This document shows positions 3,855-52,213 of a stretch of 64,000 nt of DNA, in pieces. Numbering within the stretch: position 1 is the stretch's first letter; every line of letters starts with the position of its first letter. The notes under the pieces are model-generated. The model made no database searches, was not told the origin of the DNA, and saw nothing but the letters and a program-made list of their open reading frames with translations. A program made the position numbers and the translations under genes. This DNA comes from Myxococcus stipitatus (GTDB lineage: Bacteria; Myxococcota; Myxococcia; Myxococcales; Myxococcaceae): positions 4,896,001-4,960,000 of the forward strand of contig NZ_CP147913.1 in assembly GCF_037414475.1 (NCBI RefSeq), written 5' to 3'.

Positions 3855-6800
3855 TCAGTGGACCGCGCCGCTTCCCCCAAAGTCATAGCGGCTGATGACG
3901 GGGTAGTGGTCGCTGACGATGTCGGCGTAGTCGGGCAGCTCGATGTCGGGGCGCAGGATGTGGACGGAGCCGTCGACATAGTCCGCGGACACTTCATCGC
4001 TGACGAGCGTGTGGTCGATGGCGTCGGGATACCCGGTGGTGGTGGGCTCTCCTCGGTCCGACAGCACGCGGGTGATGAAGGTGTAGTGCGTGGAGTCGAG
4101 GATGAAGTTCTCGTAGGGCGTGGGGCGGAACACGCCGTTGGACTTGCTGATGGAGCGGTCGACGTCGTCATTCCAATCGCCAACCACGAACACATGCGTG
4201 TCGGGCATCGCGTCGAGGTAGCTCTTGAGCTCGATGCTCGCGCCCTGCCGCCGCTGGTAGGACGTCGCGTCGTCGAAGGCCTTCATGTGCAGGACGATGA
4301 CGACGAGCGGCGTCGATACACCGTGGATGGAGGTGGTGAAGTCGACGCGCAAGGGCGGACGGCCCGCGAAGAGGTTGGCGTGCTGGGTGAGGATGAGCGA
4401 GGCGCTCACGAATGTGAGGGAGCTGTCGTAGAGGATGCCAGGCTTCTGCTCGCTGCTGCTGTACCAGGTGCCCGCGTTGGAGACGTAGAGCGGGTCGTTG
4501 GCGAGGAAGCCTTGATACGAGTGGAGCTGGGACTTGAGGGTGTTGAAGTCCTGGGTGTCGACCATCTCGACCAGGCCCCACAGGTTGGCGCCGGAGTTGT
4601 TCAGGATGTCGCGCGCGTGAGCAATCTGTGGCTCATCCGGTGGACCGAAGCCGTCCGCGCCGAACCACTCGATGTTCCAGTGGCCCACGGTGAACAGCCC
4701 TTCCGTGCGGGTGACGGTGAGCACCAGCGCGCGTGAGGCCGGAGTGCCCGCGGCGTCCTCGACGACCACGTTGAATGACGAGGTGCCCGCGGTGGTGGGA
4801 GTCCCGGAGATGACTCCGTCCGAGGAGAGGCTCAGCCCGGAGGGGAGCACGCCCTGGGAGACGCGCCAGGAGAAGGGCGCCTTGCCGCCAGAGCTCGCCA
4901 GCGTCGTGGTGTAGGGCTCACCGCTCCTGGCCGAGGGGAGCACGGTCGTGGTGACGGCGGGGCTCTCGAAGATGTTGAGGGTGAGCGGCCGGAGGGCGGT
5001 GCGGCCGTTGGCGTCGGTGACACGCACCTGGGTGGAGAAGGCGCCGGGAACGGTGGGGCTGCCCATGAGGCGCCCGTCGCTGGAGAGCGCGAGCCCCGAC
5101 GGGAGCGCGCTGGTGGTGTCGAAGGTGAACGGCGCCTTGCCTCCGGTGACGCCATAGAACACCCCGCTCACGGAGACGCCGACGTAGACATCGACCGGAG
5201 TGTCGGGGCCCGAGATGGCGGGGAGCGGATACACCTGGAGCGTGACGTCGCGGTCGTGGGTGCGCCCGCGGCTGTCGGTGACGCGAAGGGTGAGCGCGGA
5301 CGTGGAGGCCTGCGCACCCAAGGTGCCGGAGATGACGCCTGTGTCCGCCGCGAGGGTGAGCCCCGAAGGCAGGCCGCCGGCGGCCAGGGACCAGGTGAAG
5401 GGCAGGCGGCCACCCGACGCGGTCAGGGTGGTGTTGTACGGAGCGGTGGCGTAGCCGTCGGCGGGGAGGTTGGTGATGGTGAGCGGCGCGGAGACATCCA
5501 GCGAGAAGGTCCGGCTGTCGTTGCGCCCGTTCACATCCGTGACGCGCACGCTGAAGGACGACGGGCCGGTGGAGGTCGGTGTTCCGCTCAGCGTGCCCTG
5601 CGCGGAGAGCGTGAGTCCTGGAGGCAACGCCCCCGTCGCGAGCGTCCACGTGCGAGCGCCCATGCCTCCCGTGGCGGTGAGGGCCTGGTTGTACGCGGAG
5701 CCCTGCGTCGCATCGGGCAGGGTGAGCGTGGTGATGGCGGGGAGCGCGGTGACGGTGAAGGTGACGGGGCGGGTCGCGGCGCGGTCATTGGCGTCGCGAG
5801 CGGTGATGTCGAAGGTGAAGACGCCGTCTTGCGTGGGCTGGCCATGGAGCAGTCCCGCGGAGGCCAGCGTGAGTCCTGGGGGAAGTGCGCCCGACGCGGT
5901 GAAGACGAAAGGGGCCTTGCCGTGCAAGGCATTGAGCGGGCGTGTGACGTTGTCGCGGACATAGACACTCGGGTTCGCGAGTGGGTCGAGCGCGGGCGGC
6001 AGGAAGGTGGCGAGCGTGACATCACGCGTGTCCGAGGCGCCCAGCGCGTCCGAGACGCGGACAGTGAACGAAGCGCTGCCCGCGGAGGACGGGGTGCCGT
6101 CGAGGACACCGGTGCCTAGTAGGGAGAGGCCTGGAGGCAGCGCGCCGCTGACGAGCGTCCACGCGTGGGGCGCCTGTCCTCCGGCGACGGAGAGCGTCTG
6201 TCCATAGGCCCTGTCGGTATAGGCATCCGGGAGGGTGGCGGTGGTGATGGTGACGCCGGTGCGGACGGTGAGCTGGAAGGGCGCGGAGGTGGCGCGGCCG
6301 TTGGCGTCGCGCACCTCGAGGGAGAAGGACGAGATGCCCTGCGTGGTGGGCGTGCCCGCGATGGAGAAGGCCTCGAGCTGGAGGCCTGGGGGCAGCGCGC
6401 CGGCGGACACTCTCAGGGCCAGCGGTGCGCGGCCACCCGAGCGGGAGACGGCGAACGAGTACGCGGTGCCCACGACACCGAACGGCGGCGCCTCGGTGGA
6501 CAGGGTGGGCGCGGTGAAGCTGGAGAGTGTAAGGGATTGGGTGGCCTCGCCTCCGGAGGCATCGCGGACGCGAAGGGAGAGAGCGAACGAGCCCGTGGCG
6601 GCGGGGTTGCCGGAGAGCAGCCCCTGGGCGCTGAGCTGGATTCCAGAGGGGAGCTCTCCGCTGGCGAGGCTCCAGGCGTAGGGCGGTGTTCCTCCGGTGG
6701 CCATGAGGTGCGCGGCGTAGGTGTCACCGAGATAGGCGTCCGCGAGGACGGAGGTGGTGACGGTGAGGGCGGTGGTGCCTCCATCGGGACGCGGCGGGCC

Positions 6801-47871: not shown

Positions 47872-48027
47872 TGTGCCGCGGATGTTGACCGGTCATCGCG
47901 TGGCTGGCGGCCATTCAGGGGCCTTCATCGACCGTTGAGCCGAGACACCGTCCCGTGTGCCTGGGCCCTTGCGACACTCCGTCGGGTTCGCCGCTCGCAC
48001 AGCGTGCTCCCGAAGGGTGATTCAAGG

Positions 48028-48687
48028 ATGGCTGACGTGTCTGTTCTTCCCTGGGACAGGTGGCGGGAGTCGGGCTTGTGGAGGGCATTCCTGCTGACGT
48101 GCCGAGAGGTGATGCTTCGTCCGTCCGCCACGTTCGGCCGGATGCGGCCCGAGGGGAGCGTGAGGGGTTCACTCCTCTTCGCGCTGCTCAGCTCCTTCGC
48201 GGGTTATGCCCCCATCGGGCTCGCCAACGTGCTCCTTGCGACCGTGCACACCTTGGACTCCCCTCCGACTGCGCTGGACGAGCCCCTCCTGCTGGGCATG
48301 TATGGCTTCTCCTTCGCGGTCTATGGCGTGCTGGTTCCCGCGATGGGCCTGGTCACGACACTGTTTGTCTCGATGGGGGACCACCTGGTGTTGAAGGGGC
48401 TGGGGGTGCCCAGCTCATTCCGCGCGACGCTGCGCGGCCATGCGCTCTCGCAGGGGGTCCATCTCGTGGGGTTGGTGCCGTGCCTCGGGGTGCCCGTGTT
48501 CGTGCTCTGGTGCATGGGCGTGCGCGTCGTGGCGTATCGGGCGCTGTATCGGCTGGGCTGGGGCACGGCCGCGATGGGCGCGCTGCTGTTCCCCTTCCTC
48601 GCGGGCGGCTTGGGGGTGTGGGGTTGGCGCGCGTGGGTGGAAAGCTGGAGCGGCCTGGGTGATTGGAGTTGGCTGCTGGATGGATGA
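48028..48687 (+). CDS. YIP1-family membrane protein
   Basis: 219 residues from the ATG at 48028. About five hydrophobic helices, with the YIP1-like start WRAFLLTCREVMLRPSATFGRMRPEGSVRGSLLFALLSSFAGY. Function unknown. Its stop overlaps the next gene's ATG (48684). The next gene repeats the pattern closely, so the two arose by tandem duplication. Confidence 0.78.
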   Translation: MADVSVLPWDRWRESGLWRAFLLTCREVMLRPSATFGRMRPEGSVRGSLLFALLSSFAGYAPIGLANVLLATVHTLDSPPTALDEPLLLGMYGFSFAVYGVLVPAMGLVTTLFVSMGDHLVLKGLGVPSSFRATLRGHALSQGVHLVGLVPCLGVPVFVLWCMGVRVVAYRALYRLGWGTAAMGALLFPFLAGGLGVWGWRAWVESWSGLGDWSWLLDG

Positions 48688-49598
48688 GGATGCGGGACGT
48701 GTCCCCCATCTCGTGCCCATCGTGTCAGGCGCCCGTGGCGCTCGGCGAACTGCGCTGTCGCGCCTGTGAATCCTCGCTGTTGATGGCGCCACCTCCGGAT
48801 TCAGGAGCGGCCGTCTGCGCTGTTCATCCCGCGTGGGTGAGCGTCCAGTCTTGCGCGCGCTGCGGCGCCTTCGCCTGCGCGGCGTGTCTGCGCTCCGGAC
48901 CCAAGGGCGCCCTGTACTGCGTCCGTTGCCAGGAGCGCTCGCAGCACGAGCCGCTGCCCTGGGACCAGCGCGAGGAACTGGGCTTGATGAAGGCGTTCTG
49001 GAGGACCTGCGTGGAGGTGATGCTTCGCCCCGGCGCCGCGTTCACCCGGATGCAACCCGAGGGGCGCGTTCGCGACTCCCTGCTGTTCGTGCTGCTCAGC
49101 ACCTTCACGGGGTACTTCACGACGGTCGTCCTCTACTTCGCCATCCTGATGGCGTTCCCCAACTTCGAGAAGGTCTTCTCGCACGGTCAGCAGCGGATGG
49201 ACACTGGCTCCTTCCGGCTCGCCATCGGCGCCCTGTTCATCTTCTGGTGGGTGATGGCGCCCTTGGGGAACATGGCCGGGACGCTCCTGGCCGCGGGCAT
49301 GGACAACCTGGTGCTGCGGATGACGGGAGCGCCCAGCTCATTCAACACGACGCTGCGCGGTCATGCCTTTTCGCAGGGAGTCTTCCTGCTGGGCCTCATT
49401 CCGTTCTGCAGCCTGTATGTGACGCCCCTGTGGAGCATCGGGGTGCGCATCATGGCGTACCAGAAGCTGTATCGCCTGGGATGGGGCCGGGCCACGGTGG
49501 GGGCGCTGGTGGGGCCGCTCCTCCTCTGTGGCCTGTTCCTGGGCGGCTACACCGCCTTGTGGATGTTCATCGCATCCACCGGGAAGGGCCTCTCGTAG
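48684..49598 (+). CDS. YIP1-family membrane protein with N-terminal zinc-ribbon/B-box modules
   Basis: 304 residues; ATG 48684 overlaps the previous stop (ATGA). Residues about 9-80 contain CPSC...CRAC and CAVH...CARCGAFACAACL...CVRC: a zinc ribbon plus B-box-like finger. Then come about five membrane helices of the YIP1 type, with FWRTCVEVMLRPGAAFTRMQPEGRVRDSLLFVLLSTFTGY matching the upstream paralog. The zinc module is absent from the first copy. Likely an inner-membrane protein with a cytoplasmic zinc domain; role unknown. Confidence 0.82.
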   Translation: MRMRDVSPISCPSCQAPVALGELRCRACESSLLMAPPPDSGAAVCAVHPAWVSVQSCARCGAFACAACLRSGPKGALYCVRCQERSQHEPLPWDQREELGLMKAFWRTCVEVMLRPGAAFTRMQPEGRVRDSLLFVLLSTFTGYFTTVVLYFAILMAFPNFEKVFSHGQQRMDTGSFRLAIGALFIFWWVMAPLGNMAGTLLAAGMDNLVLRMTGAPSSFNTTLRGHAFSQGVFLLGLIPFCSLYVTPLWSIGVRIMAYQKLYRLGWGRATVGALVGPLLLCGLFLGGYTALWMFIASTGKGLS

Positions 49599-50693
49599 CT
49601 ACTGCGCCGCCGACGTCCCCGACGGAATCGCCGCGGTGACGGTGCGCTGCTTGGGCCAGAAGCGCGCGTCGTGCACTCCCTCCAGGTGCGCGATGCGCTT
49701 CTTGGTCCGCGTGTCGTAGATGTGCGCGCCGTGGTCCGAGGCCACCAGCAACAGCGCGCCCCTCACCCGCAGCTCCACCACCGACGTGGGCGACAGCGAC
49801 AGGGACTCCGGCTCGGCGAGGCGATCACTCAGCTCCCACCGCAACGGCGGCATCAGCACCGGCAGCTCCCGCGCCGCGCGCCACGCGTACAGCGGCCCGC
49901 CATGCGTCTCCAGCGACACCCACGTGCCAATCTCCGCGTGGCCCTTGTCCTTCACCACCGCGTCCAGCCGCACCGCGTCCTCGCTGCCCTCGGCGAGCTC
50001 CGTGGACGCCGGCGCATCCGGGTCCTGGCCCGACGTCGAGGACACCAACTGGCTCGCGGTGGCCAACACCCCCGTGCCCGGCGCGTCCTCCGTCTCGTAC
50101 ACCGTGGCCACCGACTCGATGCGCCGCCACTGCTCCGCCTCGCGGCGGTACGCGTGCGCCAGGCCCGCGCTGCCCTCCGTCTCCGGCACCGGGAGCCTGC
50201 GGCCGTCCACGACGAAGAACTCCTCGCCTCGCTCCGCCTTGCGCGTCAGCCCCTCCAGCTGGGACACGAGCGCCACGGTATGGCCCTGCGCGTCAAAGCC
50301 CAGCGAGTCGGTGTGTCCCTCGGTGGGGAGTGAGAGGGGGAGGGGGCCCTGGTCGGACTCGAAGTCCACCTTCCAGGCGCGCGGCGGCGCGGAGCCATGG
50401 CCCCGGTCCACCAGTACGCCCTGCTTGCCGTCCGCGCTCCAGGCCAGGTCCACCTGCTCGCACGGCGCCTCCACGGTGGCCACGGCCTTGCGTGCGCCCG
50501 TGGTGTCCTGGCGAATCCAGGTGCAGCCCGCCGGGGTCGCGTCTTGGAGGAGGGAGAGGGTGAAGGTGGGGATGGGCTCCGCGGAGGGACGTGGCGCCGG
50601 TGGGGACTCGGGCGCGGGGTCCTGTGACTTCTTGCAGGCGCCGCACAGAAGCACGGAGCCAAGGAAGAACGCGGGGCCTAGGCGGCGGAGCAT
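49599..50693 (-). CDS. Unknown lipoprotein, beta-strand-rich
   Basis: 364 residues. Lipobox FLGSVLLCGACK. The mature part begins with a Pro-rich linker and has several WD/propeller-like strands (DLAWSADGKQGVLVDRG, DSLGFDAQGHTVALVSQ, ALLLVASDHGAHIYDTRTKKRIAHLEGVHDARF), so a partial beta-propeller is likely. No catalytic motif. Convergent with the YIP1 pair; the stops abut. Confidence 0.75.
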   Translation of the reverse strand: MLRRLGPAFFLGSVLLCGACKKSQDPAPESPPAPRPSAEPIPTFTLSLLQDATPAGCTWIRQDTTGARKAVATVEAPCEQVDLAWSADGKQGVLVDRGHGSAPPRAWKVDFESDQGPLPLSLPTEGHTDSLGFDAQGHTVALVSQLEGLTRKAERGEEFFVVDGRRLPVPETEGSAGLAHAYRREAEQWRRIESVATVYETEDAPGTGVLATASQLVSSTSGQDPDAPASTELAEGSEDAVRLDAVVKDKGHAEIGTWVSLETHGGPLYAWRAARELPVLMPPLRWELSDRLAEPESLSLSPTSVVELRVRGALLLVASDHGAHIYDTRTKKRIAHLEGVHDARFWPKQRTVTAAIPSGTSAAQ

Positions 50694-50837
50694 GAGGCTC
50701 TCCGTTGCGGGTTTCCTCCCACCATCGCAGAACGCCGGGCGTGGGAGGAAGTCACCAGAGGAGTAGAGCGTGAAGAAGTTTCGGATAGCCCACGCGCGCC
50801 GGGTGTCAATTGCCCCGGTGTTGTCACGAGGTTCTAC

Positions 50838-51293
50838 TTAAACGAGCCAGCCGCTCTCATCGAGGAAGAGCTCCTCGCTGAAGTAGGGCTTGTCCTCGCG
50901 CGCGACTTCCGCGTCCGCCATGTAGAGGCTCCGTCCGTCCTTGACGACGTGCAGCACGCGAAGGTCCTCGCGAGCGCGCGGTGTCACCATGAGCGGGTTG
51001 CCGTTGAGCACGACGAAGTTGGCGCGCTGGCCGGGCTCGAGCGTGCCTTGTGGTTCCTGTTCGACATTCGCGGGAGAGGTGTCGTCGTCGACGATGGCGG
51101 GAATCATCGTCCCGCCTCGCATCGAGACGACGTCGGTGTCGGGGCCTTGGAACGCGAGGACCTCGTGGCGCGTGCCCACGGCGAGGATGCGGCCGTCCTG
51201 GAGCGCCACGGCCTCCGCGGTGGGCTGGCGTTCGTTCAGGGTGAGGAGGGTGCCACCCTCGAAGATGCGGTCGGCGGGTTGGGTGGGGTCCAT
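50838..51293 (-). pseudogene. Amidohydrolase remnant with the catalytic barrel deleted in frame
   Basis: 151 residues. The start (ADRIFEGGTLLTLNERQPTAEAVALQDGRILAVGTRHEV) is the N-terminal beta domain of YtcJ-type amidohydrolases, and the end (GTLEPGQRANFVVLNGNPLMVTP) is the C-terminal part of the same domain. The ~350-residue metal-binding barrel that should lie between (HxH, His, His, Asp) is absent; the join is near residues 62-75 (TMIPAIVDDDTSPANVEQE). The frame is intact, so either a stable mini-protein or a decaying gene. No strong RBS is seen. Confidence 0.75.
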
Positions 51294-51493
51294 GTTCTTG
51301 CTCGGGAGAGGGGGTTACCCAGGCAAGTTGCTGACGCGAGTGGAGTGCGTCCACGGGGCAGGGACGTGTCGCATCGCCGCCTGAGTGCTCGCGCGCCAGG
51401 GAGGGAGCGTCGTGCGGACGGCCCCTGGGCCTGCTGGCGCGAGTTGCCCACGGGGGCGGGCGTCCCCACGGTGTCTGGGAGGTGGTGAGCGCC

Positions 51494-52213
51494 ATGCCTC
51501 TCGACCTGTCGGAGCCCCATTTCCAGGAAGAGGTCATCGCGGCGGGGACGCTCGTGGCGGACCTGGCGGGCGTGTTCTCCGGCTCGGTGCTGGGGGCGCT
51601 GCTGGCCGAGCGGCGGAAGATGGACCTGATGGGCTTCCTGGTGCTGGGCATGGTGTCCGGCGTGGGAGGCGGCATCCTGCGCGATACGCTGTTGCAGGTG
51701 GGGCCACCGCTGGCGCTGGTGAAGCCGGCGTATCTGGTGGCGGCGCTCACGGGCGCGTTGGCCGCGTTCATCTTCGAGCTGAAGCACGGGCCCACGGTGA
51801 AGCTGCTGTCCACGCTGGACGCGCTGACCCTGGGCTCGTTCGCGGTGGCGGGGACGCAGCGCACGCTGGAGGTGGGCTTGAGCCCCGTGACGGCGGTGCT
51901 CATCGGCATCATCGCGGCGGCGGGAGGTGGCGTCGTCCGCGACGTGCTCATCCGGCGCACGCCCACGGTGATGAGACCGGAGCCCGGGTACTACGCGCTG
52001 GCCGCGCTCGGCGCCAGCCTGGTGTGTCTGGCGTTCTCCCTGACGGGGCACAGACGCCTCGCGCTGGTGGCGGGGATGGTGGTGGGCGCGGCGGTGCGCT
52101 TGATTTCCGTGAGGCGTGAGTGGCGCCTGCCCGTCAAGCGCACGCGCGCGCCGCCCATCGAGGGTGATGACTTCGGCGGGAGCAGCGAGAACGAGCCGCG
52201 CCCGAAACGTTGA
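51494..52213 (+). CDS. TRIC/UPF0126-type small cation channel protein
   Basis: 239 residues from the ATG at 51494, chosen because GGGAGG lies about 11 bases upstream; GTG starts at 51482-51485 are in the same frame. Seven hydrophobic helices and the duplicated pattern GVGGGILRDTL and AAGGGVVRDVLIR are the signature of the TRIC/UPF0126 (YadS-type) family, thought to form potassium-permeable trimeric channels. C-terminal basic/acidic tail. Divergent from the amidohydrolase remnant. Confidence 0.88.
   Translation: MPLDLSEPHFQEEVIAAGTLVADLAGVFSGSVLGALLAERRKMDLMGFLVLGMVSGVGGGILRDTLLQVGPPLALVKPAYLVAALTGALAAFIFELKHGPTVKLLSTLDALTLGSFAVAGTQRTLEVGLSPVTAVLIGIIAAAGGGVVRDVLIRRTPTVMRPEPGYYALAALGASLVCLAFSLTGHRRLALVAGMVVGAAVRLISVRREWRLPVKRTRAPPIEGDDFGGSSENEPRPKR

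Follow-up and report, generated by a model that had tools for sequence, protein, structure and literature searches.

Pseudoenzymes usually lose a few residues of the active site and keep the catalytic fold. The CRMP or dihydropyrimidinase-related proteins, derived from amidohydrolases, work without catalysis; they keep the barrel and have lost active-site residues. A composite beta domain, formed by the N- and C-terminal segments of the chain, accompanies the catalytic barrel and its metal ligands in the YtcJ-type amidohydrolases (PF07969, Amidohydro_3). The N-terminal piece of such a domain has been solved by itself in PDB 3ggm (BT9727_2919 of Bacillus thuringiensis, 81 residues), whose target code, BuR228B, suggests an excised construct and not a naturally occurring protein. 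No title describing a barrel-less amidohydrolase was found in a literature search of titles only, which is not a proof of absence.

In this study, we report a gene of this kind from Myxococcus stipitatus, found in a stretch of 64,000 nucleotides (the window), and hereafter called the mini. Both halves of the beta domain, a C-terminal peptide and the gene neighbourhood are shared with two full-length YtcJ-type genes (in genomes G010 and G016), whereas the barrel and metal ligands of these enzymes are absent from the mini, and its linker and several otherwise constant residues have changed. 3ggm is likewise barrel-less but covers only the N-terminal half, while the mini has both. The CRMP-type relatives, several of which were among the Foldseek matches, would resemble it in being amidohydrolase-derived and non-catalytic, as we propose below; however, they keep the barrel, which in the mini is itself gone.

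Gene organization and neighbourhood

The mini is an ORF of 151 amino acids plus the stop codon with ATG as the start codon, located at 50838..51293 on the reverse strand, as are all the parts described here. Residues 7-70 (51084..51275) correspond to the N-terminal half of the composite beta domain in the alignment with 44 full-length relatives, and residues 82-125 (50919..51050) to its C-terminal half. A linker of residues 71-81 (51051..51083), variable between species in length and sequence, takes the place of the catalytic barrel. The domain is followed by a fast-evolving acidic tether (residues 126-139, 50877..50918) and by the invariant C-terminal peptide LFLDESGWLV (residues 142-151, 50841..50870), supported by a motif search and by codon-position variation.

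The C-terminal end of the Pfam family Amidohydro_3 (profile positions 420-472 of 472) matched residues 74-124 with 34.5 bits (cut-off 29.7), and the composite domain of HUTI (imidazolonepropionase) fell just below its cut-off at residues 28-47 (24.1 against 25.5 bits). A composite beta domain made up of segments from both ends of the chain is predicted from the Pfam match and from the model described below. Alignment of the mini against both syntenic full-length relatives showed that it lacks the entire stretch separating 'PxxVD' from 'GTLEPG', including the His-x-His metal site; this amounts to about 460 residues, comprising the catalytic barrel and all metal ligands. The (beta/alpha)8 barrel was absent in all nine minis identified (see below), while the corresponding residues were present in the two syntenic relatives. 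The Pfam match and this alignment bear out an earlier sequence-only reading of the locus, according to which the N- and C-terminal composite pieces are joined in one frame with the barrel gone.

Two neighbours served as synteny markers. A putative lipoprotein gene, judged as such by its start and without any Pfam family above cut-off, lies at 49599..50693 on the reverse strand, and a gene for a glycine-transporter-family membrane protein (PF03458) at 51482..52213 on the forward strand. No function for the mini was readable from them. The mini and the transporter gene are separated by a divergent intergenic region (51294..51481), and the alignment of 11 upstream regions showed partial conservation of the DNA ahead of the start codon across mini and full-length loci, a pattern that an inherited promoter could explain. 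Upstream of the lipoprotein gene, a 37-base element (50719-50755) is mostly conserved across the aligned loci of both kinds, is recognisable in G020 and G019, and occurs only once in the window's genome at up to three mismatches; it is probably the control region of the lipoprotein gene itself. In addition, two adjacent frames at 47935-49598 resemble membrane proteins, and the second matches a zinc ribbon below threshold. With 46-47% identity they are diverged copies of one another, pointing to a tandem duplication at this site.

Predicted structure

The AlphaFold2 model obtained with the nine minis alone had a pLDDT of 47 and was set aside for claims on the fold. With 53 sequences (the minis and 44 full-length relatives), AlphaFold gave a confident beta domain (pLDDT 82, pTM 0.72), in which residues 72-74, 76-79 and 129-136 were below 50 and the C-terminal peptide was of low confidence. 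In the best 50 of 448 Foldseek matches (Z 11.9-14.1), residues from about 5 to 130 of the mini aligned near both ends of solved amidohydrolases. The best match was 3ggm (E 5e-5), which in a profile search also matched residues 7-70 weakly (E 0.0018). The mini is therefore predicted to fold as a composite beta domain; given that full-length proteins dominate the alignment, the model supports the fold but not its stability without the barrel.

Distribution, synteny and age of the deletion

A total of 61 genomes were searched, 27 of which belong to the genus of the window (window included). The mini frame was present end to end, without stops and with 74-100% identity, in nine of these 27 (again including the window), the full-length version in two (G010 and G016), and neither version in 16. 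The N- and C-terminal pieces of the mini were 58 and 49% identical to the full-length relative in G010, and 57 and 50% to that in G016. When the G010 protein was used as query against the 27 genomes, its sole close match was that of G016 (83%), the others being paralogues (27-35%).

At all 11 loci, nine with a mini and two with a full-length gene, this gene is flanked by the lipoprotein and transporter genes, with the same orientation throughout. In G020 and G019 the two flanking genes directly follow each other, at distances of 141 and 186 bases, respectively; in G022, G009, G026 and G002 they are 1.3-3.7 kb apart, and the intervening DNA gave no match to the mini or the full-length gene. A contig end falls inside the lipoprotein gene in G011; the transporter gene alone was found within the 14 kb read in G006, G001 and G023; and no match to the transporter gene was obtained in G007, G015, G017, G018, G021 and G024. 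Either an insertion of the full-length gene in the ancestor of these eleven genomes or its loss from the others may account for this pattern. A scan of named genomes, which can omit near relatives of the window, confirmed three loci, all of them Myxococcus minis, carried by Myxococcus llanfairpwllgwyngyllgogerychwyrndrobwllllantysiliogogogochensis, M. eversor and M. qinghaiensis.

Since the barrel-less frame recurs in nine of the 27 same-genus genomes, neither a chance ORF nor an artefact explains it. A chance ORF was also rejected by the family match, the same frame in relatives and the constraint on codons. An assembly artefact, which the sequence-only reading had named as the outcome that would undo it, was rejected as very unlikely given that nine separate assemblies carry the barrel-less gene, while the full-length gene that it had advised looking for at the syntenic locus was found in two species.

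In a tree of the two neighbouring genes (1749 aligned bases, 17 genomes), an edge with UFBoot 99 set the nine genomes with a mini apart from the outgroups and from those with a full-length gene. Because these nine form one group, one old in-frame deletion explains all of them. A recent precise deletion, as had been suggested for this locus, does not agree with a deletion common to nine species that group together on this tree and with a linker that has since diverged in both length and sequence. The tree of the beta-domain columns also placed the minis apart from all full-length proteins; in it, however, the G010 and G016 proteins joined not the minis but two full-length proteins of another genus (G115 and G116; support 98), so that the origin of the parent gene is not as clear-cut as synteny would indicate. 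In the regions read of G115 and G116, neither neighbour gene was beside the full-length gene, and the C-terminal peptide was lacking. We give more weight to synteny and the C-terminal peptide than to the domain tree, though the discrepancy stands.

Gutted paralogues and wider searches

Another YtcJ gene has been gutted in G001 and G007. Its N- and C-terminal parts adjoin after the deletion of about 1.2 kb relative to G006, in which the intact paralogue is an open frame of 589 amino acids; the junction shows 3 bases of identity, and the C-terminal part is out of frame. G021 has a different deletion in the same paralogue, located at a 9-base repeat; this one, too, is out of frame. The remnants lie at about 2317-2669 of L104 (G007), 975-1339 of L106 (G001) and 2925-3228 of L108 (G021). 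As in the mini, an internal deletion of the barrel-coding stretch has joined the N- and C-terminal parts, but the paralogue is a different one, with at least two deletions, other breakpoints and a C-terminal part out of frame. Barrel-removing deletions thus recur in the genus, and from their sequences the products of this paralogue look dead, whereas that of the window gene does not.

Searches with the N-terminal and C-terminal halves in 96 genomes of the family revealed adjacent halves, paired by eye, in at least the nine minis, G001 and G007. G131 has, by appearance, a frameshifted full-length gene with both parts 1.3 kb apart, and G035 and G085 have kept barrel homology. Among plasmids, 422 records matched; among the 30 matches listed, most involve the N-terminal half, and at two places the match extends over 81 and 79% of the query, with 28 and 26% identity, respectively. 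In viral contigs, 31 stretches matched a pattern and none was a relative.

Selection on the mini

For codon analyses, alignment columns gapped in more than half of the rows were dropped. The codon model estimated an omega of 0.091 for the nine minis (lnL -1689.6), while omega fixed at 1 gave at best an lnL of -1815.7 with a free tree and -1816.1 with a fixed tree, i.e., a gap of about 126. The neighbouring genes were alike (0.085 and 0.057), and the end pieces of four full-length genes gave values of 0.082 and 0.084, so that by omega the constraint on the mini is not weaker than that on the enzyme. Among sub-groups of minis, omega was 0.122 for one of four species, 0.066 for the remaining five and 0.034 for three members of the latter; in each, setting omega to 1 lowered the likelihood. 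Selection was regional: both halves of the domain were tightly constrained (0.056 each, that of the N-terminal half being measured over alignment columns 1-69), and the tether drifts, its omega of 0.538 over 15 columns being indistinguishable from 1 (lnL -229.6 vs. -230.6). The value of 0.118 obtained for the linker was rejected as evidence of selection because a tree length of 11.8 marks this stretch as too divergent.

These data must be considered against the idea that the mini is a decaying remnant, that is, a pseudogene still open by chance in a GC-rich genome. The gutting described above, which out of frame left dead-looking remnants in G001/G007 and, separately, in G021, gives it some precedent. 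In addition, the antisense frame -1 is likewise open in all nine minis, so that open frames alone prove little, and the Nei-Gojobori pairwise ratios of the minis (0.12-0.55) indicated weaker constraint than the codon model. These higher ratios are attributed to a strong third-position GC bias, partly real relaxation being also possible. The remnant reading is nevertheless highly improbable in view of the likelihood gap, the same sign of selection in every sub-group and the presence of the mini in all nine sampled species of the group. Furthermore, in a neutral simulation of point substitutions without indels, all nine frames stayed open in none of 1000 runs, in 1 of 1000 at half the rate and in 5 of 1000 at a quarter of the rate.

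Selection could also be acting on an overlapping antisense gene or a DNA element rather than on the mini protein, as opposite-strand frames of 147 and 179 amino acids overlap the locus, in addition to the conserved openness of frame -1. However, variable columns of the mini numbered 41, 28 and 83 of 148 each at codon positions 1, 2 and 3, respectively; third positions thus vary two to three times as often, a phase that fits the mini and not the antisense frame. Together with the match of the mini frame to a known family, this makes such an entity extremely improbable. The retention of the mini under selection is therefore well supported at codon level by the omega values, the sub-groups and the codon positions, in agreement with the retained mini-protein that had been offered as one explanation of the locus.

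Residue changes and the C-terminal peptide

Residue positions were compared in an alignment (A3) of 53 rows, holding the minis and 44 of 51 full-length proteins. Seven were omitted from it (L064, L069, L072, L076, L098, L099 and L102), one for being short and the others as near-duplicates by judgement; alignments A4 and A5 comprise 23 of the 53 rows. The relative in G137 (L057), without part of the barrel, was outside the 51; it is a further relative of the full-length protein, with an open frame of 430 amino acids at 4383-5371 of that locus, with no match to query residues 167-322 or beyond 521.

Several positions have switched in the minis. D92 and T116, constant in all 44 full-length rows, are N and V or I, respectively, in the nine minis, and position 71, a metal ligand belonging to the His-x-His site with which the barrel begins, is H in all 44 and D, L or P in the minis. 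Position 108 changed from L or I (44 of 44) to R, position 66 from G (43 of 44) to A, and position 82 from K or R (43 of 44) to Q. We infer that some of these residues once dealt with the barrel. The fixed, mini-specific N92, R108, H115 and V/I116 could form a new site at the former barrel-packing face, in which case the isolated domain would have acquired a new role in binding a ligand or a metal. Nonetheless, no motif or family match suggests a ligand, and the same pattern is equally expected from the covering of a newly exposed surface; we thus regard a function of this type as quite doubtful.

The motif FLDExGWLV followed by the stop codon was found once in each of 11 of the 27 genomes and in none of the other 16, and the genes bearing it were the nine minis and the two syntenic full-length genes only. 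The minis end in LFLDESGWLV and the syntenic full-length enzymes in LFLDETGWLV, and among the minis the last 10 codons changed solely at third positions. An invariant peptide after a drifting tether would look like a short linear motif; alternatively, given that it was modelled at low confidence, it could be a structural element and not a docking motif.

This distribution also bears on whether the mini is a dimer-competing fragment, one that would modulate the assembly of full-length amidohydrolase paralogues by associating with them within the cell. Full-length YtcJ-type paralogues do exist in the window's genome (e.g., open frames of 600 and 645 amino acids), and the mini retains the beta domain that such enzymes have. 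However, the three matches in that genome reach no more than 30-32% identity with the syntenic full-length protein, no paralogue there has the C-terminal motif, and the mini is altered at residues kept by all 44 aligned full-length proteins. Such a role is accordingly unlikely.

Discussion

Judged from the comparison of sequences, the mini is a pseudoenzyme-like, barrel-less protein kept by selection, an unusual variant in a known evolutionary class. It descends from an enzyme without its catalytic residues, and purifying selection has acted after the loss of catalysis. The full-length relatives are presumed, from their family, to be active enzymes.

We consider it fairly probable that the mini is a retained, non-catalytic binding or adaptor protein. 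In the ancestor of this Myxococcus group, a full-length gene for a YtcJ-type amidohydrolase would have stood between those of the lipoprotein and the transporter, in line with the descent seen in the comparison, and a single in-frame internal deletion would have removed the entire barrel, leaving the two halves of the beta domain in one frame with a short linker between them. Because all barrel residues are lost, the product is unable to bind the catalytic metals or to catalyse. Selection, detected at codon level, has kept it as a small non-catalytic protein with the predicted fold. It would most likely work by binding, with the beta domain as a scaffold that bears the invariant C-terminal peptide on a flexible tether. 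Since the syntenic full-length enzymes end in almost the same peptide, the latter may dock on a partner also used by the parent enzyme, and the mini may thus act as an adaptor or modulator of that partner.

A more specific version is put forward tentatively and seems to us possible rather than probable: the excision of the barrel would have welded a two-piece outer casing into a single-domain protein which, once re-surfaced, founded a new family with an inherited docking peptide, serving as adaptor or regulator of the former partner of the parent. If this is true, the repeated gutting deletions in the genus would show a route by which such welded proteins could arise. The mini has lost the catalytic fold and retains the casing alone, apparently over a long time and under selection like that of the two neighbouring genes. 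In this regard, the occurrence of full-length and gutted versions at one locus, with out-of-frame paralogues as controls, constitutes a natural experiment on whether the accessory domain of an enzyme is functional in its own right.
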